Shown here: positions 1 through 13,462 of the stretch, one piece after another
Numbering within the stretch: position 1 is the stretch's first letter
How the letters are laid out: the number at the start of each line of letters is the position of its first letter
Source: Lysobacter luteus
GTDB lineage: Bacteria > Pseudomonadota > Gammaproteobacteria > Xanthomonadales > Xanthomonadaceae
Direction of reading: 5' to 3'
DNA length: 64,000 bases
Assembly: GCF_907164845.1 (NCBI RefSeq)
Contig: NZ_OU015430.1
Coordinates: forward strand, 1-64,000
The notes under the pieces: model-generated
Told to the model about the DNA's origin: nothing
Seen by the model: the letters and a program-made list of their open reading frames with translations, nothing else
Database searches by the model: none
Position numbers and translations under genes: made by a program

Positions 1-575
1 CCGCGCAGGTCGCCGCCGGCTATTGCACCTACGGGCCCAACACCACGCTGGTGCTGACCGTGGGCCACGGCACCCACGCCTTCACCCTTGACCGCGAGAT
101 CGGCAGCTTCATGCTGACCACCCGCGGCATGCGGATCCCGGAAGAGACCCGTGAGTTCGCGGTCAACATGTCCAACCAGCGCCACTGGCAGCCGCCGATG
201 CAGGCCTACATCGCCGACCTGCTGGCCGGTACCACCGGTCCGCGCGGCAAGGACTTCAACATGCGCTGGGTCGCCAGCATGGTGGCCGACGTGCACCGCA
301 TCCTGACCCGCGGCGGCATCTTCAGCTATCCGCTGGACGCCAAGTGCGAGGCCAAGGGCGGCAAGCTGCGGCTGATGTACGAGGCCAACCCGATGAGCTT
401 CCTGGTCGAGCAGGCCGGTGGCGCCGCGAGCACCGGCCGGGCCCGAATGATGGAGGTCCAGCCCAGCGGACTGCACCAGCGGGTGCCGGTGTTCCTGGGA
501 TCCCGGGCCGAGGTCGAGGCCGCGGTGGGATACCACCTCGAACACGATCGCGCCGCCGCCGCGGCGGTCGGCTGA
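1..575 (+). CDS. fbp: Class 1 fructose-1,6-bisphosphatase, C-terminal part (5' end outside window)
   Basis: The reading frame is open from the left edge (first full codon at base 3), so the N-terminal half of the enzyme is missing. The visible part is the C-terminal domain of a class I FBPase, which hydrolyses fructose 1,6-bisphosphate to fructose 6-phosphate in gluconeogenesis. Recognisable stretches are [16 protein letters not shown] at the edge, GSFMLT, the [14 protein letters not shown] segment and the substrate-binding run with [23 protein letters not shown], followed by EQAGGAAS. These match the family closely. It ends with TGA at 573-575. There is no visible operon partner downstream; a 120-base gap separates it from the sigma-54 activator gene. 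Confidence 0.93.
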
Positions 576-695
576 ACCGGCGCGCTTGCTGGACCCGAAT
601 GGCCGCCGCTGACCGTTCGCGGCGGCCACTCGCGTTGGATTGACTTGCCCCGGGAGAGTCGGCGCGGAGGGCGCGATGGGGCAAGGAGCGAGGGA

Positions 696-2114
<1,419 letters not shown>

Positions 2115-2135
2115 ACCCGCCCCGACGTGTCACGG

Positions 2136-2171
2136 CAAAGCGCCGCAACGGTGATCGGTTGCGGCGCTTTG
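2136..2171. terminator. Bidirectional hairpin between convergent genes
   Basis: A perfect 14-bp stem (2136-2149 with 2158-2171) and 8-base loop lie between the sigma-54 activator and the convergent fapF-like gene. There is no long T run, so it may be a weak intrinsic terminator for both strands. Confidence 0.65.
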
Positions 2172-2193
2172 CGTTGGTGCCTGCGTGGACCGG

Positions 2194-3525
2194 TCAGAAC
2201 GTGTGCGAGGCGCGCAGGCCCATGACGAAGTTGGGTGCGTCGGGGGTCAGGCCGATGGTCGCCTGGCTGCTGAGCGTCCAGCCCGACCGCAGGGCGTAGG
2301 TGCCACCGACGTTGAACGTGGAGCTGTTGCTCGAGCTGCCCGGCACCCGCATCTCCGAACCATCGGGCGACGTGGTGTGGGTGGCGGCCGAGAACGCGCT
2401 GCCGATGCTGAAGCTGATCGCCGAGCGGTCGTTGAGCGCGATCGCCATGCCGGCGCTCAGCTGGATGGTGTTGCCCAGCGACACCTCGGCTGGCGAGACC
2501 TGGTCGAGCACCGGCGAGATGTCGTCGAACTCTTCCGGACGGTAGATGGTGTATCCCAGGTTGCCGAACAGGATCACCGGGTCGTAGGTACGCAGCGCCG
2601 AGACGTTGAAGGTCGCGCTCCACAGGCCGGTGCCGGTCGGCAGGTCCTCCGGGATGTTGAGATTGTTGTTGTCCTCGTCGGCCATGATCAGCTTCAGGCC
2701 GAAGGGGTGGCGCCCGGTTGGCGCGCGCACCCGCAGGCTGGTCACGATGTCGGGCCAGGTGGCCGACTCCTTCACCCACTGGTAGTAGGCCGCGACACTG
2801 ACGTCGCCGATGCCGCTCGAGCTCAGCTGCACCTCGCTGATCTCGGTGGAGGCACCGCCGGCGCCGCCGCTGACGAACCGGGTGTCGCGCTGGACCCAGG
2901 GGATGTTGCCTTCGATGCTGAAGCGGTCGGTCAGCCCGTAACGCCCGGACACGTCCAGTGTCATCACGCTGGCCTTGGTCTGGTCGAGGTTGAGCGTGCC
3001 GAGGAAGATGGCGTCGAGTGCCAGGAACCCGCTGAGGGCGAGTTGCCGGCGGTCGTAGTAGCTGTAGTTGAGTCCGGTCTCGAAGGTGAAGCGGCGCTCG
3101 AACAGCGGCGCGTGCTCGCGCACCACCAGCGCCTTCTCCTGTTCGCGGCGCTCCTCGTCCTCGTCCCGGCGCGCCTCGCCGACCTGCAACGGCTGCTGCG
3201 GGTCGGTGGGCGGCGACTCCTGCGTCGCCAGCTGGCCCGCCGCACGCGCGGTCTCCTGCGCGGCGGCGTCCTGCTCGACCGACTGCGGCCCGGGCGTGGA
3301 CGTAAGACCTCGGCCGCGCTGCTCCATCAGCAACGCATCCACCTGCTGGCGCAGGCTGTCGATCTCGGCCTGCTGGCGCCCGAGTTGCTCGCTCATCTGC
3401 CGGAGCAGTTCGTTGGTGGCTGCATCGCTCGCGGGATCCGCGGCGTGGGCCGCGCCGCTGCCGAGCGCAAGCGCGATGGCGAGGAACAGCGGCCGGGCAA
3501 CGGGCGACGGGGTGTTCAAACGCAT
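2194..3525 (-). CDS. fapF: FapF-like outer-membrane amyloid transporter
   Basis: A 443-residue outer-membrane protein. The start at 3525 gives a clean signal peptide (MRLNTPSPVARPLFLAIALA, cut near AHA-AD). Residues ~36-70 form a coiled coil (MSEQLGRQQAEIDSLRQQVD), followed by a Pro/Gln/Glu-rich linker. The rest is a beta-barrel of alternating strands that ends in a C-terminal phenylalanine (RASHTF), the usual BAM signal. This layout (helical N-terminal plug plus barrel of ~430 residues) is that of FapF, the trimeric pore that exports FapB/FapC amyloid subunits in Pseudomonas. It is the last gene of the cluster, as fapF is in Pseudomonas. Assignment rests on architecture and position; a generic porin-like barrel is the alternative. 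Confidence 0.72.
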   Translation of the reverse strand: MRLNTPSPVARPLFLAIALALGSGAAHAADPASDAATNELLRQMSEQLGRQQAEIDSLRQQVDALLMEQRGRGLTSTPGPQSVEQDAAAQETARAAGQLATQESPPTDPQQPLQVGEARRDEDEERREQEKALVVREHAPLFERRFTFETGLNYSYYDRRQLALSGFLALDAIFLGTLNLDQTKASVMTLDVSGRYGLTDRFSIEGNIPWVQRDTRFVSGGAGGASTEISEVQLSSSGIGDVSVAAYYQWVKESATWPDIVTSLRVRAPTGRHPFGLKLIMADEDNNNLNIPEDLPTGTGLWSATFNVSALRTYDPVILFGNLGYTIYRPEEFDDISPVLDQVSPAEVSLGNTIQLSAGMAIALNDRSAISFSIGSAFSAATHTTSPDGSEMRVPGSSSNSSTFNVGGTYALRSGWTLSSQATIGLTPDAPNFVMGLRASHTF

Positions 3526-3577
3526 GATCGGGGCATCCCTGGAATGACTCTCCGCGCGTTCCACGCGGCCCCCCTGA

Positions 3578-4333
3578 TCAACGGCCGACTCCATCCATTC
3601 CGGCCAGTGCCTGCTTGATGCCCAGGTGCTGCTGCCAGCTGTCGGGCATGGCGGCAGTGAACAGCTGCAGGCGCAGCTGGTTGTGCCCGGTGACGTTGTC
3701 GCCCGCTATCTGGCCGAGCTGCCGGATCGAGCCATTGGCAGCGTCGCCACCGATGTGCTGCGACAGCAGCGCCCCGGGCCCGGTGATGCTCAGGCTGGCG
3801 CCGAGGGCGGGGTCGAAACTGATGCTCGCCGTCATCGGCCCAGCCGTGCTCGCGCTGCTGGCGAGGCCGTTGAAGGTGCCGCCGGCGCCCGCGGCGGGCG
3901 TGAAGCTGATCGAGGTGATGTTGCCCAACCGGTTGCCGTCACCGGCGATCTGCGCGATCTGGCCGATGCCCTGGACCTGCAGGTGTTCGCCACCGCCGGC
4001 CTGCTGTCCGCCGGCCGGCGCGAGACCGCTGCCGGCGCCGGACCCGCTTTCGCTGTGGACCTGGACCAGGTAGCCACCGTTGCCGTCGGGCACCACCTGC
4101 AGCGTGCCGGTGGCATGTGCGGTGCCGCCCTGTGCGTTGTGCAGGGTGGACACCAGGTCGATCCGAAGGCCGACCAGCATGTTGGCGCCGTAGAACTTGC
4201 CGCTGACCTCGGACAGGGTCGCGTCGTCGACCAGCTGGGCACGCAGAGGAGGCAGGGCGGACCCGGCAAATGCCGGGCCCGCGCCTGCCACGAGGATCCA
4301 GAACAGGGCACGGGGGAGTGTATGTCGGTTCAT
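3578..4333 (-). CDS. Secreted protein at the fapE position of the amyloid operon
   Basis: A 251-residue exported protein with a signal peptide ending near AFA-GS (start ATG at 4333; a longer open frame upstream overlaps the C39 peptidase gene and is not credible). Near the mature N-terminus lies DDATLSEVSGKFYGAN (~36-51), which resembles the ELSxVxG motif of leaders cut by C39 peptidases. The remainder is rich in Gly, Ser, Ala and Gln with alternating hydrophobic residues (ITSISFTPAAG, MTASISFDPALGASLSIT) and ends with an amphipathic segment. It lies between the FapD-like peptidase and the FapF-like barrel, the place held by fapE in Pseudomonas. I do not recognise its sequence, so the FapE role is inferred from gene order. 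Confidence 0.7.
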   Translation of the reverse strand: MNRHTLPRALFWILVAGAGPAFAGSALPPLRAQLVDDATLSEVSGKFYGANMLVGLRIDLVSTLHNAQGGTAHATGTLQVVPDGNGGYLVQVHSESGSGAGSGLAPAGGQQAGGGEHLQVQGIGQIAQIAGDGNRLGNITSISFTPAAGAGGTFNGLASSASTAGPMTASISFDPALGASLSITGPGALLSQHIGGDAANGSIRQLGQIAGDNVTGHNQLRLQLFTAAMPDSWQQHLGIKQALAGMDGVGR

Positions 4334-4364
4334 GGAAACCTCGTTTACGGAAGCCGCGATGTGC

Positions 4365-5075
4365 TCAGAACAGGTCGGCGTGGACCAGGCCGAACTCGAC
4401 CACGCGCGGCGGCGTGGTGGCTCGGTCCAGTGCGTCGACCCGGCGCTGGAGCGCAGGCGAACTGCGGCTGTTGACCAGGTACGAGTCCGGATCCATCGGT
4501 CGGTCGCCCACCACGGCGAGCACGATCCCGTTCCAGCCCTCGACAAAATCGCGCTCGTTCATCACCCGGTGGCCGAGCGCGGGATCGGCGACGAAGACAC
4601 GCCCGGCGTCGGCGCCCTTCACCACCACGAAATGCTTGTAGCCCTTGAGGTCGAGCAGCGCGATCACCGGCATCTGCAACCGGTAGAGCGCGTCGGGCTC
4701 GATCTTGAAACCGTGGGCGCGCAGGCCGAGCGTCTCGACGTAGCGCTTCATGTCCAGCATCGAGAAGCCGTTCTGCACCACCTGCCTGGGATCGACCCCG
4801 ACCATCATCCGGCGGATCATTTCCTGCTCGTCGGTCTCGATGCCGTAGCCGTACTGCAGCACGCTGCCCAGCGCCGCCGAGCCGCAACTGAAGTCGTACT
4901 GCTGCGGCATCAGTTCGCGGAAGCGCAGGTCGCGGAAGGTCCTGACCTGCTTGCTGACCGGCGCGGTGCCCAGCTGGCCGGCGTTGAAAGCGGTCTGCGC
5001 GTGGCCGGCGCCCGGCGCAAGCGAAAGCCCGGCCAACAGGCCCACGGAGATCAGGATTTGCATCAGCGGCTTCAT
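4365..5075 (-). CDS. fapD: C39-family cysteine peptidase, FapD-like
   Basis: A 236-residue peptidase with an N-terminal signal peptide (MKPLMQILISVGLLAGLSLA, cut near GHA-QT), so it acts in the periplasm. It carries the C39 catalytic set: Gln in QQYDFSCGSAAL with Cys64, His148 in GYKHFVVVKG and Asp164 in VADPALG. C39 peptidases usually remove double-glycine leaders. In the Pseudomonas fap operon FapD is a stand-alone C39 peptidase needed for secretion or maturation of the amyloid subunits. The gene follows the three FapC-like genes across a 104-base gap with a hairpin and is followed after 31 bases by the fapE-position gene. Confidence 0.85.
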   Translation of the reverse strand: MKPLMQILISVGLLAGLSLAPGAGHAQTAFNAGQLGTAPVSKQVRTFRDLRFRELMPQQYDFSCGSAALGSVLQYGYGIETDEQEMIRRMMVGVDPRQVVQNGFSMLDMKRYVETLGLRAHGFKIEPDALYRLQMPVIALLDLKGYKHFVVVKGADAGRVFVADPALGHRVMNERDFVEGWNGIVLAVVGDRPMDPDSYLVNSRSSPALQRRVDALDRATTPPRVVEFGLVHADLF

Positions 5076-5096
5076 GCTTGCGGTGGCTCCTTGTTG

Positions 5097-5124
5097 CCGG
5101 GTCGGCGGATCTCCGCCGGCCCGG
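5097..5124 (-). promoter_or_regulatory. Intercistronic hairpin after third fapC-like gene
   Basis: A 13-bp stem with one mismatch (5097-5109 with 5112-5124) lies between the last fapC-like gene and the C39 peptidase gene. No T tract follows. It may stabilise the subunit mRNA or lower expression of the downstream export genes. Confidence 0.5.
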
Positions 5125-5179
5125 TTTCACTTTCATGCACGACAGCTACGTCGCGCGCGGTTGGATCCGGTCGTCCGGA

Positions 5180-5989
5180 TCAGTCGCCTTCACAGACCAG
5201 GCACGGATCCGGCGGAGGCGTGCAGGTGCCGCACGACGCCACCGCGATCGAGAGGCCGTTGTGCTGTGCGTTGCCGATGCCCGCGGCGATGTTGACGCCG
5301 ATGTTGCCGACCGCGTTGGACAGCGCGCTGCCGTTGAGGAATGCGGTGTTGTCGAGGTCGCACTCGGCGATCAGGTCGTTCCAGAAGGTCAGCTGCTCGC
5401 TGTCGGCGCTGGCCTTGGCGATCGTGCCGGAGCCATTGACCGATGCAGCCAGTGCATTGGATTGCGCGTTGCCGACACCGGCCGCGACGTTCAGGCCGAT
5501 GTTGCCGGCTGCATTGGCCAGCGCGTTGTCGGTCACGTAGGCGTCGTAGAAGCCCTGGGTGGGGTTCTCGTCCTCATCGTCGGCGATGTTGAAGGCGGTG
5601 GTCTGGCTGTTGAACAGCATCGCCGAGGCGAACACGGCGTCACCGTCGACCGAGGCGAGCGCGGCGTCGTTGGCCTGCGCGTTGCCGACACCGGAGGCGA
5701 TGTTGGCGCCGATGTTGCCCAGTGCGTCGGTCAGGGCGTCCCCGGTGACCGAGGCGCTGTTGTCGCCGTCGCCGAAGGAGCCGTTGGCTTCGGTGGCCTG
5801 GTCCTGGTCGACCAGCGCGGCGGATTCGCTGGACACGTCGATTTCGCCCGTGGCGAACACGTCGCCCATGACGTAGATGCTGTTGTACATGTCCCAGTTG
5901 CTGTAGATCGTGGCGTCGTCGCCTTCGGCCAGGGCCGGTGCCGCGAATCCCGCCAGTGCCAGTGCAAGGATGGTGAGTCGGGTCTTCAT
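5180..5989 (-). CDS. FapC-like functional-amyloid subunit, copy 3
   Basis: A 269-residue secreted protein with signal peptide (cut near ALA-EG). It contains three imperfect repeats at ~91-116, ~162-187 and ~228-252, built on GNIGxNxAxGxGNAQxN, spaced 66-71 residues and separated by acidic linkers. Pseudomonas FapC likewise has three Asn/Gln/Gly/Ala-rich repeats with linkers and a C-terminal CxxC. Here CGTC is at 253-256, and this copy alone has a further PPPDP segment and a second CxxC (CLVC, 263-266). It is the last of three tandem paralogues. The role as a fibre subunit is inferred from repeats, the Cys motif and the FapD/FapF neighbours. Confidence 0.78.
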   Translation of the reverse strand: MKTRLTILALALAGFAAPALAEGDDATIYSNWDMYNSIYVMGDVFATGEIDVSSESAALVDQDQATEANGSFGDGDNSASVTGDALTDALGNIGANIASGVGNAQANDAALASVDGDAVFASAMLFNSQTTAFNIADDEDENPTQGFYDAYVTDNALANAAGNIGLNVAAGVGNAQSNALAASVNGSGTIAKASADSEQLTFWNDLIAECDLDNTAFLNGSALSNAVGNIGVNIAAGIGNAQHNGLSIAVASCGTCTPPPDPCLVCEGD

Positions 5990-6016
5990 GTCGTTACCCC
6001 CTCAAAGGGTATGGAT

Positions 6017-6040
6017 GGCGGGGCGGCTGGCCGCCCCGCC
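6017..6040 (-). promoter_or_regulatory. Intercistronic hairpin after second fapC-like gene
   Basis: A perfect 10-bp GC stem (6017-6026 with 6031-6040) closed by the loop CTGG fills the short gap between two fapC-like genes. No T tract follows on the minus strand, so partial termination or mRNA protection is more likely than full termination. Confidence 0.55.
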
Positions 6041-6050
6041 GGGTGTTGCA

Positions 6051-6821
6051 TCAATCGCAGGTGCCGCACGACGCGACCGCGATCGACAGCCCGTTGTGCT
6101 GGGCATTGCCGACGCCGGCGGCGATGTTGACGCCGATGTTGCCGACCGCTGACGACAGCGCCATGCCGCTCAGCGAGGCGTCGTTGTCGAGGTCGAAAAA
6201 CGCCTCGGCGGTGTTGATGGCGGTCACCTGTTCGCTGTCGGCGCTGGCCTTGGCGATCGTGCCCGAGCCGTTGACCGAGGCCGCCAGCGCATTGGACTGG
6301 GCGTTGCCGACGCCGGCCGCCACGTTGAGCCCGATGTTGCCGGCGGCGCCGGCGAGCACGTTGTCGCTGACCGACGCGTCGTAGGCGATGCCGTCGTCGG
6401 GGATGAGCTCGCCACCGATGTTGCCGATGGTGGTCTGGCTGTTGAACAGCATCGCCGACGCGAACACGGCCTCGCCATCGACCGACGCCAGCGCGGCGTC
6501 GTTGGCCTGGGCGTTGCCCACGCCGGCGGCGATGTTGGCGCCGATGTTGCCGAGCGCGCCGCTCAACGCATCGTCGGCGGCGGACGCGGTGTTGTCGCCG
6601 TCGCCGTACGACCAGTTGGCGTCGGTGGTCTGGTCCTGGTCGACCAGGGCGGCGGACTCGCTGGAGACGTTGATCTCGCCACTGGCGAACACATCGCCGA
6701 TGACATAGATGCTGTTGAACATGTCCCAGTCGCTGTAGATCGTTGCGTCGTCGCCTTCTGCGAAGGCGGGCGCGGCGAAGGCCACCAGGGCGGCGGCGAG
6801 CAGGGTCGTCTTGATCTTCAT
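6051..6821 (-). CDS. FapC-like functional-amyloid subunit, copy 2
   Basis: A 256-residue secreted protein with a signal peptide (MKIKTTLLAAALVAFAAPAF, cut near AFA-EG). The mature start EGDDATIYSDWDMFNSIYV is nearly the same as in the flanking paralogues. Three repeats of the GNIGANIAAGVGNAQAN type are separated by variable acidic linkers, and it ends with the CGTC motif one residue before the stop. Copies 2 and 1 are closest to each other. In Pseudomonas one FapC forms the fibre body and FapB nucleates it, so the extra copies here may be alternative or mixed subunits (inference). Confidence 0.78.
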   Translation of the reverse strand: MKIKTTLLAAALVAFAAPAFAEGDDATIYSDWDMFNSIYVIGDVFASGEINVSSESAALVDQDQTTDANWSYGDGDNTASAADDALSGALGNIGANIAAGVGNAQANDAALASVDGEAVFASAMLFNSQTTIGNIGGELIPDDGIAYDASVSDNVLAGAAGNIGLNVAAGVGNAQSNALAASVNGSGTIAKASADSEQVTAINTAEAFFDLDNDASLSGMALSSAVGNIGVNIAAGVGNAQHNGLSIAVASCGTCD

Positions 6822-6854
6822 AGGGTGGTTCCTTGCGTGGATGGTGTCGTGGAT

Positions 6855-6874
6855 GGGGCGGCCGGGGCCGCCCC
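6855..6874 (-). promoter_or_regulatory. Intercistronic hairpin after first fapC-like gene
   Basis: A perfect 9-bp stem (6855-6863 with 6866-6874) with a 2-base nominal loop lies in the gap after copy 1. It matches the arrangement after copies 2 and 3 but differs in sequence, suggesting that each gene-plus-hairpin unit was duplicated and then diverged. Confidence 0.5.
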
Positions 6875-6895
6875 GTCGGGCGTCAGGTCAGGGGA

Positions 6896-7669
6896 TCAGT
6901 TGCAGGTGCCGCAGGAGGCGACCGCGATCGACAGGCCGTTGTGCTGCGCGTTGCCGACACCGGCGGCGATGTTGACGCCGATGTTGCCGACCGCGGCCGA
7001 CAAGGCCGAACCCGAAAGCGATGCGGTGTTGTCCAGGTCCATCCCGGCCACCACGTCGTTCATCTCCGTCAGCTGCTCGCTGTCGGCCGAGGCGCTGGCG
7101 ACGTTGCCCGAGCTGTTGACCGAGGCGGCGAGCGCATTGGACTGCGCATTGCCGACGCCGGCGGCGACGTTGAGGCCGATGTTGCCGGCGGCGCTGGCGA
7201 GCACGTTGTCGGACACGCTGGCGTCGTAGAACAGACCGGCATCGGCCTCGAACGCATCGGTGCCGAGGTTGGCCGCGGTGGTCTGGTTGTTGAACAGCAT
7301 CGCCGAGGCGAACACCGCCTCACCGTCGACCGACGCCAGCGCGGCGTCGTTGGCCTGGGCGTTGCCCACGCCGGCGGCGATGTTGGCGCCGATGTTGCCG
7401 AGCGCGCCGCTCAGGGCGTCCTCGCTGGCGCTGGCAGTGTTGTCGCCGTCACCGGTGGACCAGTTGGCCAGGGTGGTCTGGTCCTGGTCGACCACCGCCG
7501 CCGATTCGCTGGCGACGTCGATGGTGCCGGACACGAACACTTCGCCGATCACGTAGATGCTGTTGTACATGTCCCAGTCGCTGTAGATGTCGGCGTCGTC
7601 GCCCGCCGCGAACGCGGGGGTGGCAATCGCCAGCAGGCTGGCGGCAATCAGGGTGTGGCTGAGTTTCAT
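6896..7669 (-). CDS. FapC-like functional-amyloid subunit, copy 1
   Basis: A 257-residue secreted protein. The start at 7669 has AGGAGAGAG just upstream and gives a signal peptide cut near AFA-AG; the 14 extra in-frame codons upstream are unlikely. Mature N-terminus GDDADIYSDWDMYNSIYVIG, three repeats with the GNxGxNxAAGVGNAQxN core, and a C-terminal CGTC followed by one Asn. It is the first of the three fibre-subunit genes and follows the FapB-like gene after 38 bases. The conserved third repeat GVNIAAGVGNAQHNGLSIA is shared with copy 2 without change. Confidence 0.78.
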   Translation of the reverse strand: MKLSHTLIAASLLAIATPAFAAGDDADIYSDWDMYNSIYVIGEVFVSGTIDVASESAAVVDQDQTTLANWSTGDGDNTASASEDALSGALGNIGANIAAGVGNAQANDAALASVDGEAVFASAMLFNNQTTAANLGTDAFEADAGLFYDASVSDNVLASAAGNIGLNVAAGVGNAQSNALAASVNSSGNVASASADSEQLTEMNDVVAGMDLDNTASLSGSALSAAVGNIGVNIAAGVGNAQHNGLSIAVASCGTCN

Positions 7670-7707
7670 GGTTTCTCTCTCCTGTCGTGGGTGGTGCGGA
7701 TGCAGCG

Positions 7708-8313
7708 TCAAGGCGTGCCGCCAGGCAGCTGGAGCACGATGGCGTTGGTCGAGGAATTCCCGACCCCCGCCGTCTGGTTGACCTGGACCACGCCCTGGCT
7801 GCCGCGGAAGGCGTCATCGGCGATGAACGCCTCGCGGGGCCGGGACGTGGGTTGGGCTCCCCCAGAAGTGGTATCGCCGGCGACGCCGGCGAGGGCGGCG
7901 TCATCGACGCCGGCGACCAGCGCCACGGCAGGGCTGCCGAGCTGTCCGATCGCGAAGAGGTTGGCCTGCGCGTTGCCGCTGCCGGCCACCTGGTTGACCG
8001 ACAGCAGGCCCTGGCTGGCGGAGAACGCGCCGTCGCGCAGCTGTGCGCTGGCGGCCCGGTCGAGCGCGCCGGCGGTTGGCTGTTGCCGCGCCTGCAGTCC
8101 GACCAGTCCGGTGCCGCCATCGGCGATCGCGATCGCCGCGAGGTTGGCCTGCGCATTGCCGGTGCCAGCCGCCTGGTTGACCGCGATCCGTCCGCTTGTG
8201 CCGGCGGCAGCCTGCCCTTCGATCACCGCGCGGTCGTCGGCCGCCGCCGGTGCGGCAAGGGCGCTGAGCACGAGCGCGGCCGCCAGGGTGGTGGTGGAGG
8301 CTCGCAGGGTCAC
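7708..8313 (-). CDS. Repeat-containing secreted protein, FapB-like (possible nucleator)
   Basis: A 201-residue protein with GTG start that overlaps the preceding stop codon by four bases, so the two are translationally coupled. Signal peptide cut near AAA-DD. Three repeats at ~41-62, ~102-123 and ~174-195 share GxxxVNQxAGxGN, the first two continuing AQAN; they are related to, but distinct from, the FapC-like repeats. There is no C-terminal CxxC. It holds the fapB position, just before the FapC-like genes, so a nucleating or minor-subunit role is plausible, but Pseudomonas FapB does have the Cys motif, so the match is partial. Confidence 0.65.
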   Translation of the reverse strand: MTLRASTTTLAAALVLSALAAPAAADDRAVIEGQAAAGTSGRIAVNQAAGTGNAQANLAAIAIADGGTGLVGLQARQQPTAGALDRAASAQLRDGAFSASQGLLSVNQVAGSGNAQANLFAIGQLGSPAVALVAGVDDAALAGVAGDTTSGGAQPTSRPREAFIADDAFRGSQGVVQVNQTAGVGNSSTNAIVLQLPGGTP

Positions 8314-8861
8314 GGCCCGCCGGTTCCTTCCGACCCGCCGACCGCGCCAAGCACCGGCAGCAACGCCCCGGTGATAGTGCCGGCCAGACCGCCGGTCGCG
8401 CGGCCGATCGGACCACCGGCGCCGCCGATGCCGCCGACCGTGCCGGCGATCCCGCCCTGCAGCGCGGTCGGCGAAGTGCCCATGACCACGGCCGTCCCCA
8501 GCTGGCCGGTGGCGTCGGTCATTGCCGGGCCGGTGGTAAAGCCGGCGACGCCTGCCGAGGCGGTCTGGTTGAGGGCGTCGTCGCCGACCAGTTGCCCGAG
8601 TACGCCATCAAGCGTGCGATGGAACACCTGCGCCGGGAACACGGTGGCCTGGGTATGCACGGGGTTCTGGTCGCGCGGCAGCCCGCGGTAGGCGATCCGC
8701 GGCTGGACCGTGCGGGTGACGATCAGTACCGGGTCCGGACCGGTGCCCGGCGCGGTCGAAGGCGCGTCCTGCGCGCAGACGGCCGGAACGACCACCAGGC
8801 CCGCAAGGGCGGCGGCCGCGCGGAGCACGCGCTTGGAAAGGATGACGACGGCGATTGACAT
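8310..8861 (-). CDS. Secreted Gly-rich protein, first gene of the amyloid operon (fapA position)
   Basis: A 183-residue exported protein whose start at 8861 gives an N-terminal hydrophobic segment (VVILSKRVLRAAAALAGLVV) and likely cleavage near VCA-QD. The N-terminal half contains VLIVTRTVQPRIAYRGLP; the C-terminal half is low in charge and rich in Gly, Ala and Thr (GGIAGTVGGIGGAGGPIGRA). No known domain is recognised. By place it corresponds to fapA, a chaperone-like factor of the Pseudomonas system, but I see no sequence proof. The next gene starts within its stop codon. A sigma-54-type promoter lies 57 bases upstream of its start. Confidence 0.62.
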   Translation of the reverse strand: MSIAVVILSKRVLRAAAALAGLVVVPAVCAQDAPSTAPGTGPDPVLIVTRTVQPRIAYRGLPRDQNPVHTQATVFPAQVFHRTLDGVLGQLVGDDALNQTASAGVAGFTTGPAMTDATGQLGTAVVMGTSPTALQGGIAGTVGGIGGAGGPIGRATGGLAGTITGALLPVLGAVGGSEGTGGP

Positions 8862-9193
8862 GGAGCCCCCGGAAAAGTCCGCGGCGCGGGTCTGCACCGC
8901 GGCGGCGGAGGGTCCAACGCGAGTTCCGTGCCATCCATGCAAACGCATGAATCCATTGGATTTTCTGGATCAGACTCGACGGGTTGCCCCGCGCGTACTA
9001 CCGGAATGTTGCGGCGGTGCAACGTTTGCGCGCCCGTCGATTCCCCCGAATCCCCCGGTCAGCGCGTGGACACCGCCGTCACGCGCGTGTCGCGCCCATC
9101 GGGACGGCAGCGCGCGCGCCGTTGCCTTACTGCAACCCGGCAATCGCGTGCGAGGATGTCCGCTTTCCTGTCCCATTGCGTATACGCGCGCGT
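8862..9193. other. 332-base divergent intergenic region
   Basis: Besides the sigma-54 promoter this gap holds two small inverted repeats upstream of it: AATCCATTGGATT at 8950-8962 (6-bp arms) and GTTGC-N6-GCAAC at 9008-9023. The second lies about 100 bases upstream of the predicted transcription start, a usual distance for an enhancer site. Either could bind the sigma-54 activator. No coding sequence is credible in the gap, and no clear sigma-70 promoter for the rightward gene was seen. Confidence 0.4.
8918..8933 (-). promoter_or_regulatory. Sigma-54 (RpoN) promoter of the amyloid operon
   Basis: The minus strand reads TGGCACGGAACTCGCG. The -24 element TGGCACG is a full match and the -12 GC lies at exactly the required spacing, with two deviations in the -12 box (TCGCG for TTGCW). 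Predicted start of transcription is near 8907, giving a leader of about 45 bases before the first gene. Confidence 0.62.
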
Positions 9194-9922
9194 ATGAACT
9201 CCACGCCGTCCCCCAACGCCGACGAGGCGCCTGCCGACTTCATCGAGGTCATCCCCGATGCACTGGACCCGGCCCACTGCCGTGCCTGGATCGAGCGCTT
9301 CCAGGCCAGCGGCGCCGCCGTGCCCGGCCGGGTTGGCGGCGGCGTGCACGTCGAGCTCAAGGACAGCGTGGACCTGACCATCAGCGGGCGGCCGGAATGG
9401 CGCGACGCGGAGGCCGCGCTCAACCAGGCGGTGTTCAAGGGCGTGCTGCGCTATCTGCGTCGCTGGCCGCACGCGCTGATCGCACCACTGATGCTGGAGG
9501 TGGCCGATGCCGACGGCAGCCGCCACCGGCTGACCCCCGAGCGGCTGCGGGCGATGGACGACGCGGCGCTGGCGCCGGTGGTGCAGACGGTGCTGCGCCC
9601 GGGTGCGATCAACCTGCAGCGTTACACCGCCGGCCGTGGCGGGTATCCCTACTGGCACTGCGAGCTGTATCCGCGCGATCCGCACGCCGAGACGCTGCAC
9701 CGCCACCTGCTGTGGACGGTCTACCTCAACGACGGTTTCGGCCAGGGCGAGACCGAGTTCCTCTACCAGCAGCGCAAGGTCGCGCCGCGCACCGGTTCGC
9801 TGCTGATCGCGCCGGCCGCCTTCACCCACACCCACCGCGGCAACCGCCCGGACGGCGGCGACAAGTTCATCGCCACCAGCTGGGTGCTGTTCCAGCGGGC
9901 GGAGAAATTGTTCGGCGGTTGA
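9194..9922 (+). CDS. 2-oxoglutarate/Fe(II)-dependent oxygenase
   Basis: A 242-residue cytoplasmic protein of the prolyl-4-hydroxylase-like 2OG-Fe(II) superfamily. The iron-binding triad is visible as His155-x-Glu157 in YPYWHCELYP and a distal His at 212 or 214 in FTHTHRG, with Lys224 or a nearby Arg to bind 2-oxoglutarate. VNF-type strands GETEFLYQQRKV and GSLLIAPAAFTHTHRG are typical. An open frame runs upstream, but ATG 9194 starts the conserved region. It is divergent from the amyloid operon. Substrate unknown; a link to the fibre proteins would be speculation. Confidence 0.8.
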   Translation: MNSTPSPNADEAPADFIEVIPDALDPAHCRAWIERFQASGAAVPGRVGGGVHVELKDSVDLTISGRPEWRDAEAALNQAVFKGVLRYLRRWPHALIAPLMLEVADADGSRHRLTPERLRAMDDAALAPVVQTVLRPGAINLQRYTAGRGGYPYWHCELYPRDPHAETLHRHLLWTVYLNDGFGQGETEFLYQQRKVAPRTGSLLIAPAAFTHTHRGNRPDGGDKFIATSWVLFQRAEKLFGG

Positions 9923-9943
9923 GGTTGCCGGATCGAGTGCGGC

Positions 9944-10372
9944 TCAGCGCGGGTGGTTGAGCACCAGCCAGTACAGCCCGACCTGTTTGACGGCCCACAC
10001 GAACTGCTCGAAGTCGACCGGCTTCTGGATGTAGCTGTTGACGCCGAGCGCGTAGCTGGCCTCGACGTCGAACGGCTCGGTACTGGTGGTGAGCACCACC
10101 ACCGGCAGGGTGCGGGTCGCCTCGTTGGCACGGATGGCCTGCAACACCTCGCGCCCGTCGACCTTCGGCAAGTTGAGGTCGAGCAGCACGATCGAGGGCA
10201 GGTCCCCGGGGTCGCGGCCCTCGTGCCGCCCGCGGGCGAACAGGTAATCGAGCGCCTCGGCGCCGTCGCCGACCACCACCAGGCGGTTGGCGATCTTGGC
10301 CTCGTCGAATGCGAGCCGGGTCAGCTCGACGTCGTCGGGGTTGTCTTCGACCAGCAGGATGTCCTTGTGCAT
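9944..10372 (-). CDS. Single-domain response regulator (CheY/Rcp1-like)
   Basis: A 142-residue stand-alone receiver. It has the acidic pocket (VEDNPDD), the phosphoacceptor Asp in VLLDLNLPKVDG, Thr/Ser in VVVLTTST and Lys in YIQKPVDF. The insertion between strands (LFARGRHEGRDPGDLPS) is typical of the Rcp1 subgroup partnered with phytochrome-like or PAS kinases. There is no output domain, so it acts by protein contact. ATG 10372 overlaps the kinase stop by one base; a GTG one codon earlier is possible. It is co-transcribed with the kinase upstream. Confidence 0.88.
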   Translation of the reverse strand: MHKDILLVEDNPDDVELTRLAFDEAKIANRLVVVGDGAEALDYLFARGRHEGRDPGDLPSIVLLDLNLPKVDGREVLQAIRANEATRTLPVVVLTTSTEPFDVEASYALGVNSYIQKPVDFEQFVWAVKQVGLYWLVLNHPR

Positions 10373-11529
10373 CACTCGGGTTCTTCCACGGCCGGCGCCT
10401 CGGGCGGGGCGGCTGGCAGTTCTAGGTTGAAGGTGGCACCGGCACCCGGCTCCGATTGCGCCGTGATGCGGCCGCCATGTCGCTCGGCGATGCGCTCTGC
10501 TATCGCCAACCCGAGTCCATGGCCGCCCCCCTCGTCCGGCCCGTGCAGGCGCTGGAACGGTTGGAACAGTTTGTGAGCATATCGCATGTCGAAACCGCTA
10601 CCGGCGTCGCGCACCACCAGTCGCAGGCCGCCGTCGAGCGGCTCGCCGGCGACCTCGATCCAGACCTTTTCCCGCTCGCGCGAGAACTTCCAGGCGTTGT
10701 CCAGCAACTGTCCCAGCAGCAGCTTCAGCAGCCGCTCGTCGCCGTGGGCTTGCAGGCCCGGCTGGACGTGCAGCTCGACCGCGCGGTCCGGCTCGGCTTC
10801 CTGCAACTCGGCCAGCACCCACTCGGCCAGCAGGCCCAGGTCGACCGGGCGCGGCCGGAGCTCGACCCCGGTCACGTGCGACAGCTCCGCCAGCGCGGCC
10901 AGCAGGCTGGTCATGTGCGAGGCGGCGTTGAGGATGCGGTCGAGGTGGTCGCGGCTGGTCTCGTCGAGGCTGTCACCGGCGCGTGCGGCCAGCCGTCGGG
11001 AGAAGCTCTCGATCGATCGCAGCGGCGCGCGCAGGTCGTGCGCGACCGCGTCGGCGAACAGCTGCAGCTGCCGGGTGGAGGCATCCAGCGCGGCGGCGCG
11101 TTCGCGCGCGGCCTCCTGCAACACCGCCCGCGCGGCGTGCTCGGCGGTGACGTCACGCAACTGCACGACCAGGTACTGCGGCGCGCCATCGGCATCGCGC
11201 ATGAGCGCGGCATTGGTGTGCACCCAGATCGGCTTGCCGTCGGCGCGCAGGTAGCGCTTCCGGTTGTCGATCACCCGCTGGCGGCCGTCGATCAAACCGG
11301 CGATGCCGTCAAGGGTGAGTCCGCGGTCCTCGGGGTGGATCGACTCGGTGACCGGTTTGCCAACGAGCGTCTCGGCGTTGCATCCGAGCATGCGCCCGAT
11401 CGCCGGGTTGACCTCGCGCCAGCGCCCGTCGAGGTCGACGATCGCCATGCCGATGCCCGACGCGGCCATCGCCACGCGGAAGCAGTCGTCTCCGGTGGCG
11501 GTCGTAGGGCTGGTGGCGGACTGGGGCAT
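10372..11529 (-). CDS. PAS-domain sensor histidine kinase
   Basis: A 385-residue kinase without membrane segments. A PAS/PAC domain spans ~15-130 (SGIGMAIVDLDGRWREVNPAIGRMLG, with the PAC tail VVQLRDVTAEHAA). HisKA follows with His164 in AVAHDLRAPLRSI, then HATPase_c with N-box LLDNAWKF, G1 DAGSGFD and G2 GGHGLGLA. This form is usual in bacteriophytochrome-like or cytosolic PAS kinases. The open frame begins 40 codons earlier, but the homologous region starts at ATG 11529. It likely phosphorylates the adjacent receiver. The gene is divergent from the transporter gene. Confidence 0.85.
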   Translation of the reverse strand: MPQSATSPTTATGDDCFRVAMAASGIGMAIVDLDGRWREVNPAIGRMLGCNAETLVGKPVTESIHPEDRGLTLDGIAGLIDGRQRVIDNRKRYLRADGKPIWVHTNAALMRDADGAPQYLVVQLRDVTAEHAARAVLQEAARERAAALDASTRQLQLFADAVAHDLRAPLRSIESFSRRLAARAGDSLDETSRDHLDRILNAASHMTSLLAALAELSHVTGVELRPRPVDLGLLAEWVLAELQEAEPDRAVELHVQPGLQAHGDERLLKLLLGQLLDNAWKFSREREKVWIEVAGEPLDGGLRLVVRDAGSGFDMRYAHKLFQPFQRLHGPDEGGGHGLGLAIAERIAERHGGRITAQSEPGAGATFNLELPAAPPEAPAVEEPE

Positions 11530-11629
11530 TGGCTCGCGGACGGGTTTTCGGTGGAGTGTAGTGGTTGCGGTCGTGACGGGCCGGTGCATCGCGGTGCGTG
11601 ATTTCGCGATGTACCGCACAATGCCGTCC

Positions 11630-13462
11630 ATGGACCTGGGCCCGTTCACATTGCAACAGGTGATGTTCCTGCTGATCCTGGCGGGCGGGCTTTACCTGTT
11701 CGTCAGCGAGCGCCTGCGCATCGACGTGAGCGCCATGCTGGTGCTGCTGGCGCTGGTGGTGACCGGCATCCTCGACGAGAACCAGGCGCTGTCGGGGTTC
11801 GCAAGCGAGCCGGCGATCATCGTCGCCGCGGTGTTCGTGGTCTCCGGTGGGCTGGCGGCGACCGGCATCACCGAGCACATCGGCCAGTGGATCGGTCGCG
11901 CGTCGGGCAAGAGCGAGTCGCGCGCGATCGCGGTAACGATGCCGGCCGTCGCGGCGATGGCGTCGTTCACCCACCACGTGATGGTGACGGCGATGATGCT
12001 TCCGATCCTCACGCGGTTCGCCAAGGCACGCGGGCTGTCGGTGTCGCGGTTGCTGATGCCGATGTCGCTGGCCGCCTCGCTCGGCACCTGCCTGACCCTG
12101 GTCAGCGCACCGGCGTTCCTGCTGGCCGACAACATGCTAGAGCGCACCGGCGCCGAGGGACTGGGGATCTTCTCGATCACCCCGATCGGCATCGCGCTGG
12201 TCGTGATCGGCGTGGTCTACATGCTGCTGGCGCGCTGGCTGCTGCCCAAGCGCAGCGGTTCCGGTGGCGACGACGAGTACCTGCGGCTGGACCGCTATCG
12301 CACCGAGTTGCTGGTGACCGACGGTTCGCGTTGGAGCACGCGCCCGCTGGCCGAGTTGCAGAAGACGCTCGGCGACAAGTTCCGGATGATCGGCTGGTTG
12401 CGCGACGGCCGGGTGCGCCGCGACCTCGGCCCCAGCAGCCCGCTGATCAGCGGGGACGTGCTGCTGGTGGAGGCTTCGGCCGACGCGCTGGCCTCGCTGC
12501 ACGACGATACCGGGCTGGACCTGTATCCGATCGCCAAGTTCACTGCCAAGACCCGCGACGGCGACCCGGGCGAGGCCGACGACCTGCAGCTGGTGCAGGC
12601 AGTGGTGGCACCGGGTTCGGAGTTCATCGGCCGCAGCATCCGCGAGCTGGATTTCTCCAACCAGTTCAAGGCGGTGATCGCCGGCCTGTGGCGACGTGGC
12701 GCGGACATGGCGCCGCGGCTGGCCGACGCCCGCCTGCGCGAAGGCGACCTTCTCGTTTTGTGGGGCCGGCCGGCGCGGTTCGCCGAGCTGGCGACCCACC
12801 ACGGCTTCCTGATGCTGGTGCCGTTCGCCGGCGAGGCCAAGCGCCGCCAGCGCGCACCGCTGGCGCTGGCGATCCTCGGGGTGACCATCATCGCCGCGGT
12901 GACCGAATGGCTGCCGGTACCGCTGGCATTCCTGCTCGGCGCGGTCGCAATCGTCGCCACGCGCTGCGTCGACATCGGCCAGGCCTACCGCGAGATCGAC
13001 GTGCGGGTGTTCGTCCTGATTGCCGGCGTCATCCCGCTCGGCATCGCGATGGAACAGACCGGCACCGCGCAGCTGCTGGCCTCCGGCCTGCGCAACGTGG
13101 TCGCCGACTGGCCGGTGCTGGCGGTGCTGCTGGTGCTGTTCACCATGGCAGCGCTGCTGACCCAGATCCTGTCGGACTCGGCCACCACCGTCCTGCTGGG
13201 GCCGATAGCGATCGAACTGGCGCAGTCGCTGGGCGTGGCCCCCACGCCATTCGTGGTGTGCACGGCGCTCGGCGCGGTGGTCGCGTTCCTGACCCCGATC
13301 GGCCACCACGGCAACCTGCTGATCCTCGGGCCCGGGCAATACCGGTTCGGCGACTTCGTGCGGATCGGCGTCCCACTGACAGTGGTGGTTGCCCTGGTCA
13401 GCGCCTGGATGACGCGCTGGCTGTGGCTCGGCGGTCCGCTGCTGCCGTCATTCGGCAGTTGA
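11630..13462 (+). CDS. SLC13/ArsB-type permease with two TrkA-C (RCK_C) domains
   Basis: A 610-residue inner-membrane transporter of the DASS/ion-transporter superfamily. Two blocks of membrane helices flank a cytoplasmic middle with two RCK_C domains (~205-285, containing LLVTDGSRW, and ~315-390, containing VVAPGSEFIGRSIREL). Short conserved loops such as FTHHVMVTAMMLPI and ILSDSATTVLLGPIA mark the two hairpin regions that bind substrate and sodium. Members carry dicarboxylates, sulfate or citrate; the substrate cannot be told here. Possible starts are 11609, 11621 and 11630; the last best fits the family N-terminus. Confidence 0.85.
   Translation: MDLGPFTLQQVMFLLILAGGLYLFVSERLRIDVSAMLVLLALVVTGILDENQALSGFASEPAIIVAAVFVVSGGLAATGITEHIGQWIGRASGKSESRAIAVTMPAVAAMASFTHHVMVTAMMLPILTRFAKARGLSVSRLLMPMSLAASLGTCLTLVSAPAFLLADNMLERTGAEGLGIFSITPIGIALVVIGVVYMLLARWLLPKRSGSGGDDEYLRLDRYRTELLVTDGSRWSTRPLAELQKTLGDKFRMIGWLRDGRVRRDLGPSSPLISGDVLLVEASADALASLHDDTGLDLYPIAKFTAKTRDGDPGEADDLQLVQAVVAPGSEFIGRSIRELDFSNQFKAVIAGLWRRGADMAPRLADARLREGDLLVLWGRPARFAELATHHGFLMLVPFAGEAKRRQRAPLALAILGVTIIAAVTEWLPVPLAFLLGAVAIVATRCVDIGQAYREIDVRVFVLIAGVIPLGIAMEQTGTAQLLASGLRNVVADWPVLAVLLVLFTMAALLTQILSDSATTVLLGPIAIELAQSLGVAPTPFVVCTALGAVVAFLTPIGHHGNLLILGPGQYRFGDFVRIGVPLTVVVALVSAWMTRWLWLGGPLLPSFGS

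Follow-up and report, generated by a model that had tools for sequence, protein, structure and literature searches.

The opening 64,000 nucleotides of contig NZ_OU015430.1 of Lysobacter luteus, which we refer to as the window, contain on the minus strand (positions 2,194-8,861) a Fap functional-amyloid operon of eight genes in which the gene of the fibre subunit, fapC, occurs three times in tandem. Tandem fapC is a feature of the Lysobacter/Luteimonas clade and not of this genome alone, and all three copies in the window are maintained by purifying selection. The copy adjacent to fapD carries, beyond the CxxC motif common to all three, a proline run and a further cysteine motif that recur at this position in most arrays of the clade.

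Identity of the eight genes

An earlier note on the same DNA had described eight same-strand genes for exported proteins and read them as a diverged Fap system with the order A-B-C1-C2-C3-D-E-F. The list of open reading frames (ORFs), with corrected starts, bears out the eight minus-strand genes and their order, and family models recognize B, C1-C3, D, E and F in the published order of the Pseudomonas operon, fapABCDEF (PMC3792158). Signal peptides, that of FapD included, were judged by eye. The product of fapB (7708-8313, 201 residues), the minor subunit and putative nucleator, contains the three repeats of VNQxAGxGN type that had been noted and scores 96 bits against the NCBIfam FapB model. 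The three fibre subunit genes, fapC1 (6896-7669), fapC2 (6051-6821) and fapC3 (5180-5989), score 89.9, 97 and 91.1 bits against NCBIfam FapC, and each product contains, as described before, three repeats, whose 19-residue cores follow the pattern AxGNIGxN(I/V)A(A/S)G(V/I)GNAQxN, and a C-terminal CxxC. C3 continues past this motif into a proline run and a second CxxC, a tail that is absent from C1 and C2 and that the earlier note did not mention. The exported C39 cysteine protease encoded by fapD (4365-5075) matches NCBIfam FapD at 203.9 bits and the Pfam C39 peptidase family at E 1.4e-22; its catalytic residues are present as claimed, in the motifs QQYDFSCG, HFVVV and DPALG, which we take to be those of the C39 active site. 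The fapF gene (2194-3525, starting at an ATG internal to the listed ORF 2194-3594) encodes the outer-membrane barrel for subunit export, at 344.1 bits against NCBIfam FapF, with a coiled coil that is assigned by sequence only. The Pfam matches in the operon are the C39 peptidase and, for F only, a loose barrel family.

The two secreted proteins that the note had left unassigned can now be named. The fapE product (3578-4333; a longer ORF, 3578-4546, begins within fapD and was not used), a minor extracellular subunit or anchor, matches NCBIfam FapE at 37.5 bits (E 1.5e-9) over residues 22-220 of 251, a match that is weak yet spans the whole length. The first gene (8310-8861, 183 residues) is very likely fapA, for the putative periplasmic chaperone, through its relatives only: seven of ten A proteins from related operons match NCBIfam FapA with E values of 1.5e-10 to 2.9e-5 (best 41.6 bits), and the other three, all from the clade of the window, score at most 12.5 bits or not at all.

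Structural relatives of FapF and FapC

A profile of nine FapF proteins of the clade matches the solved FapF structure 5o65 with an E value of 2.7e-94, and C3 matches the solved FapC fibrils 9nqd and 9u4u with an E value of 6e-16, the match running through the three repeats as far as the CxxC. Without templates and from 48 sequences, AlphaFold2 gives a model of C3 that has a mean predicted local distance difference test (pLDDT) score of 67 and a predicted template modeling score of 0.66; its sole PDB match below E 0.001 is the FapC fibril 9u4u (E 1.8e-8, probability 1.00). As modeled, C3 adopts the Greek-key cross-β stack of FapC, and the structure prediction that the earlier note had proposed as a check does not contradict an amyloid fold.

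The AlphaFold2 model of FapE is mostly β (pLDDT 75.8), and a fold search of the PDB with it gave nothing below E 0.001; a solved relative for FapE was dropped on this result. FapE contains two motifs, QIAGDGN and QIAGDN, that resemble half a Fap repeat, and their QxxQxAG part is conserved in an alignment of 30 sequences. A Fap-like C-terminal part of FapE has already been noted (PMC5557850).

Tandem fapC genes across the family and beyond

We sampled 297 genomes of the family, of which 121 have a FapF match at E ≤0.001 and 79 one at E <1e-60. Of these 79 strong loci, 77 were examined, namely the window and 76 others (G276 and G295 were left out), and duplicate genome records (L101-L116) were excluded from the counts; starts of FapC in the relatives were set by a purpose-built hidden Markov model. 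The loci fall into two types. The 29 operons of the window type have a short FapC of about 250-290 residues, and fapC is visible in 28 of them, one (G122) being cut by a contig end before fapC. Two to four tandem copies are present in 21 of the 28 and a single copy in seven; the arrays hold two copies in 17 operons, three in three and four in one. The array species are related, not independent: six genera are represented, and 11 of the 21 arrays come from one of them (g15). Four fapC genes are present in L. arseniciresistens, which is the closest named relative and whose FapF is 84% identical to that of the window. The other 48 loci are of a long-FapC type, with a median of 419 residues after the signal peptide, and fapC is single in all 47 in which it is visible (G178 is cut off).

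Outside the family, a scan of named genomes covering the best 80 of 432 relatives (Pandoraea, Ralstonia, Burkholderia, Paraburkholderia and others) yielded 64 loci; fapC is visible in 63 and always single, the 64th (L161) lying on a short contig. All 110 loci outside the clade thus have one fapC gene. A wider scan gave FapC matches in 18 of 369 genomes of the class and 37 of 299 of the order, a scan in which the seven or nine best candidates per genome were scored, so that some copies may have escaped it. Tandem matches that were separate and nearly full-length came from family members only (G000, G062 and G090); G557 has several FapC matches within one frame of 780 residues, and G501 has matches in a 640-residue frame adjoining one of 222 residues. 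FapC of both family types is strongly acidic, with median charges per 100 residues of -6.8 and -8.3; FapC of the loci from outside the family is close to neutral (-1.6).

The earlier note knew of no described system with three fapC-like genes. The triplication stands; its uniqueness does not, given the tandem fapC of 21 operons in the Lysobacter/Luteimonas clade. According to a 2025 survey of GTDB genomes, 94.5% of 1172 fap clusters have two fapBC genes (PMC12392863), and the remaining 5.5% may include clusters with more than two, of which we found no discussion in section 6 of that paper. In the literature searched we found no description of tandem fapC, of the proline/cysteine tail or of the hairpins described below, the last not having been searched by name. 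Searches on tandem or duplicated fapC, or on Fap in Lysobacter or Luteimonas, gave nothing among the matches listed, and those on cysteines in FapC gave nothing of use among the matches listed.

Copy history and the tail of the last copy

C3 and C2 are 78% identical, and the amyloid cores of C1-C3 are nearly identical, with more divergence in the linkers. In a FapC tree, C1 of the window groups with copy 1 of L. arseniciresistens, C2 with copies 2 and 3, and C3 with copy 4; the array is therefore older than the split of these two species. The ratio of nonsynonymous to synonymous substitution rates (dN/dS) is about 0.23 for C1 against L. arseniciresistens copy 1, 0.22 for C2 against copy 2, and 0.24 for C3 against copy 4. 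Because of the identity of C3 and C2, these low ratios and the same set of genes in relatives, the copies are not a product of chance. Pseudogenes or an assembly artefact are likewise out, since each fapC is open and under purifying selection and arrays occur in separate genomes.

Between genera, FapC paralogues mostly cluster by lineage, which reflects either repeated duplication or one old duplication followed by gene conversion. L. arseniciresistens gives a direct sign of recombination between copies: its copies 3 and 4 have the same DNA sequence through codon 90, and from codon 91 onward copy 3 has the same sequence as copy 2.

In 19 of the 21 arrays, the copy adjacent to fapD ends, past the CxxC, in a proline run and a further cysteine motif (CGTCTPPPDPCLVCEGD in the window). 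The tail was scored with a regular expression that demands CxxC, then PP within three residues, then another C. It is found in none of 26 upstream copies, none of the seven single-copy operons of the clade and none of the 110 other loci. The exceptions among the arrays are G096, where both copies lack cysteines at this place, and G066, with an assembly gap in its third copy. The pattern of the tail is constant, its letters and length vary, and it occurs in five of the six array genera; as a single genus supplies 11 of the 21 arrays, the 19 cases amount to fewer than 19 independent ones. The third fapC of a metagenome-assembled genome (L102/L189) has a gap of N beside a tail-like cysteine-rich sequence, likely a misassembly of the repeated genes.

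Regulator and candidate promoter

Convergent with and adjacent to fapF lies a brfA-like gene (645-2114, plus strand) for a σ54 enhancer-binding activator, with Pfam matches to Sigma54_activat (3e-70), VpsR (9.1e-19) and the Fis-type helix-turn-helix HTH_8 (2.3e-7). Its VpsR match is the only one in the genome, which also has 19 GGDEF matches and two matches to the DNA-binding domain of σ54. Other operons of the clade have a BrfA-like neighbor wherever the sequence reaches, except G032, in whose stretch it was not seen. A putative -24/-12 promoter element, TGGCACGGAACTCGCG (8918-8933, minus strand), with a score of 9 out of 10, lies 56 nucleotides before the ATG of fapA. The evidence for this candidate σ54 site is its conservation in the clade: the pattern [TC]GGCACG-N6-GC occurs upstream of fapA in all 26 window-type loci with upstream sequence, two more being cut off. 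The site is the rule in the clade of the window, not across Fap operons. A search for σ70-type promoters found none in the operon, including between the fapC copies, and promoters of this kind between the copies were dropped from consideration.

This layout is the published BrfA/RpoN arrangement of Pseudomonas fluorescens PF07, in which the RpoN-dependent BrfA is encoded by the adjacent reverse gene downstream of fapF and a -24/-12 promoter precedes fapA (PMC9207406). BrfA senses cyclic di-GMP (c-di-GMP) (PMC13101488), and the operon of the window may be under c-di-GMP control. Between fapF and the brfA-like gene, a strong hairpin (2115-2193, z -3.6) is near-perfect, with a run of A before and a run of T after it, as would fit a two-way terminator, which is its likely role.

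Hairpins after fapC

Each fapC in the window is followed by a predicted GC-rich fold without a U run: one hairpin after fapC1 (6822-6895), one after fapC2 (5990-6050) and hairpins after fapC3 (5076-5179), all on the minus strand. Against dinucleotide shuffles, these spacers have z scores of -1.2, -2.9 and -4.9, compared with +0.7 for the B-C1 spacer, -1.1 for D-E and +0.6 for E-F. Across the 21 arrays, the 47 spacers after fapC have a median z of -2.8, with 37 below -2 (mononucleotide shuffles), and 46 of them fold at or below -22 kcal/mol (the least stable at -22.4), the exception being the first spacer of G096. The spacer between fapC and fapD folds at or below -20 kcal/mol in all 138 loci, comprising 21 arrays, seven single-copy operons of the clade, 47 long-FapC loci and 63 non-family loci. 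Among control spacers of the clade, this value is reached in 0 of 28 B-C, 1 of 24 D-E and 5 of 25 E-F spacers, with four D-E and three E-F spacers excluded as too short or gapped. The presence of the hairpin in single-copy operons of all types rules out that it is special to arrays. It is possible that the fapC-fapD fold is a conserved RNA element of Fap operons, and we infer that the hairpins may act as stabilizers or processing stops of the subunit message, with each copy in an array having its own.

Genomic slot and a second Fap-like cluster

The operon lies in a slot (window 51-13462) flanked by fbp-like, 2-oxoglutarate (2OG) oxygenase, response regulator, kinase and transporter genes. The long-FapC type is found in seven further species of this genus (L042-L048), and in six of them the operon sits between the same fbp-like and 2OG-oxygenase genes; the seventh (G185) shows the fbp side only. 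In a quick tree of the flanking proteins, the window, L. arseniciresistens and six long-type species form one clade with a Shimodaira-Hasegawa-like approximate likelihood ratio test value of 100, and a quick tree of FapF splits the same species into two clades with long branches between them. FapF of the window is 39% identical over 312 residues to that of G109, a long-type species. The simplest reading, which these trees suggest, is that in some members of the genus the whole fap cassette, regulator included, was replaced; possibly there were instead two old operons that were lost differentially. An array imported from outside the family is unsupported, as this slot is occupied by the window type in g15, g21 and g26, the further Lysobacter genera that were sampled, and it is the long-FapC type that looks like the newcomer in this genus. 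Horizontal transfer of Fap was described as infrequent in a 2013 study (PMC3792158).

The same genome contains a second divergent Fap-like cluster (G000:C1, about 1486200-1490411; L041:8201-12412, minus strand), which encodes an acidic secreted protein of 341 residues, a protein of 145 residues, a C39 peptidase (143.5 bits against the FapD model), a small secreted protein and a FapF-like barrel (130.3 bits). The FapB and FapC models gave no match there. FapF matches of about 110-170 bits are common in the family. In L097 (G166), fapF appears as two overlapping ORFs (10656-11965), either broken or split by an assembly frameshift. A search for the cellulose gene product BcsB gave no match in the genome of the window.

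A model for fibre production and its alternatives

In Pseudomonas, subunits are exported by the FapA chaperone, the protease activity of FapD and the FapF pore, with FapB nucleating and FapE anchoring the fibre (PMC5557850, PMC12822426). By analogy, the activator of the window, probably bound to c-di-GMP, would fire the σ54 promoter before fapA, giving one mRNA for FapA to FapF, and the hairpin after each fapC would stabilize the subunit part of this message. The subunits would leave the cytoplasm via Sec, be kept unfolded by FapA and cross the FapF pore with the aid of FapD proteolysis; FapB would then nucleate a fibre in which C1, C2 and C3 co-polymerize, and FapE would anchor it. A mixed fibre would be expected because the cores of C1-C3 are almost identical and the linkers differ. 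The main effect of the three genes would be a higher subunit dosage and variety in the exposed linkers, and the proline/cysteine tail may make the last copy a specialized subunit for cross-linking, capping or anchoring.

That the eight genes form a Fap functional-amyloid operon, served by a BrfA-type activator of its own and working in this way, we consider very probable. Several observations weigh against it. None of the eight proteins reaches the curated NCBIfam cut-off of its model, so that the search with family models that the earlier note had called for returned FapB, FapC (three times), FapD, FapE and FapF, all below threshold; the FapE match is weak, and the FapA score (9.2 bits, E 1.4) is not significant. 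Confidence in the C3 model is moderate, the remaining four models having a pLDDT of 41-52. Taken alone, the σ54 site is near chance, as 61 of 2000 shuffles reach its score and sites of at least 9 occur 23 times in the 64 kb, in a scan that keeps the best site in 350 nucleotides and hence is not blind; its pattern recurs in no more than 25 of the 47 long-FapC loci and in 3 of 62 from outside the family. The fapC1 hairpin is not significant against dinucleotide shuffles, the comparison of hairpins across loci rests on mononucleotide shuffles, and the Fap fibre itself is predicted here from genes. With regard to the cut-offs, no FapF of the 297 sampled family genomes reaches the curated threshold, and for this reason we take the NCBIfam Fap models to be tuned to Pseudomonas-like members and scores below the cut-off to reflect distance. 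A barrel with repeat adhesins that merely resemble Fap would also be consistent with the unreached cut-offs and with a fibre predicted from genes; the synteny, the sequence matches for seven of the eight genes, the solved relatives of FapF (5o65) and FapC (9nqd/9u4u) and the fold match of the C3 model render such a non-amyloid system highly improbable, and we reject it on the structural matches.

What the individual fapC copies do is less certain. One proposal, to which we give somewhat less than even weight, is that the copy adjacent to fapD is a dedicated, position-fixed subunit whose proline spacer and second cysteine motif would stand out from the fibre and serve to cross-link, cap or tether it; the upstream copies would supply plain polymer, and recombination would keep the cores matched for co-assembly. 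The genes may instead be interchangeable and serve dosage only, the tail having no special role and being kept as gene conversion misses the fapD end. The nearly identical cores, the block-wise identity in L. arseniciresistens and a copy number that is fluid from one to four all agree with this account; against it, the pattern of proline run and cysteine is kept in last copies from five genera despite differing letters and length, and none of the seven clade operons with a single copy has it, nor does any of the 110 other loci. We regard dosage alone as a tentative but real possibility that falls a little short of an even chance. It is unlikely that each fapC builds a different fibre, with other linkers and for other partners or conditions. 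The greater divergence of the linkers relative to the cores would fit such a repertoire, as would the distinct relatives of C1, C2 and C3 in L. arseniciresistens, but no σ70-type site was found in the operon and the almost identical cores would favor mixed polymerization.

Comparison with known systems and implications

Curli (CsgA/CsgB) work like Fap in using secreted repeat subunits, a nucleator and a dedicated outer-membrane pore, and differ in having another pore and no known C39 protease. Fap and curli are described as the two paradigms of bacterial functional amyloid (PMC12822426). With the Fap systems of Pseudomonas (for example UK4, PAO1 and PF07), the operon of the window has in common its gene order, the repeat type of FapB and FapC, three repeats per FapC, the C-terminal CxxC (seen in UK4 FapC), a periplasmic C39 FapD, the coiled-coil, 12-stranded barrel FapF and the arrangement of a BrfA-type regulator with a putative -24/-12 promoter. 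It differs in having three fapC genes instead of one, a tailed last FapC and far-diverged FapA and FapE. Closer to the window, the operons of L. arseniciresistens, L. selenitireducens, L. antibioticus, Luteimonas gilva and others of the clade have the same tandem short fapC genes (two to four), last-copy tail and hairpins; L. arseniciresistens has four copies, L. selenitireducens three, and the arrays of L. antibioticus and Luteimonas two. The long-FapC operons of the same genus and family agree in gene order (fapA was not always detected) and in their BrfA-like neighbor but have one long fapC and no tail. Acidithiobacillus and Vibrio likewise exceed the usual three repeat units per operon, with a FapC of 4-16 repeats (PMC3792158), but in them the multiplication took place within a single protein and in the window it took in the whole gene.

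The Fap operons of the papers cited here have a single major subunit gene. A clade with one to four subunit genes, one of them tailed, is a natural experiment on how dosage and composition relate to fibre properties, and it bears on whether an amyloid fibre can carry a specialized subunit. The hairpin, present after fapC in each Fap type analysed, also opens the control of subunit stoichiometry to direct test.

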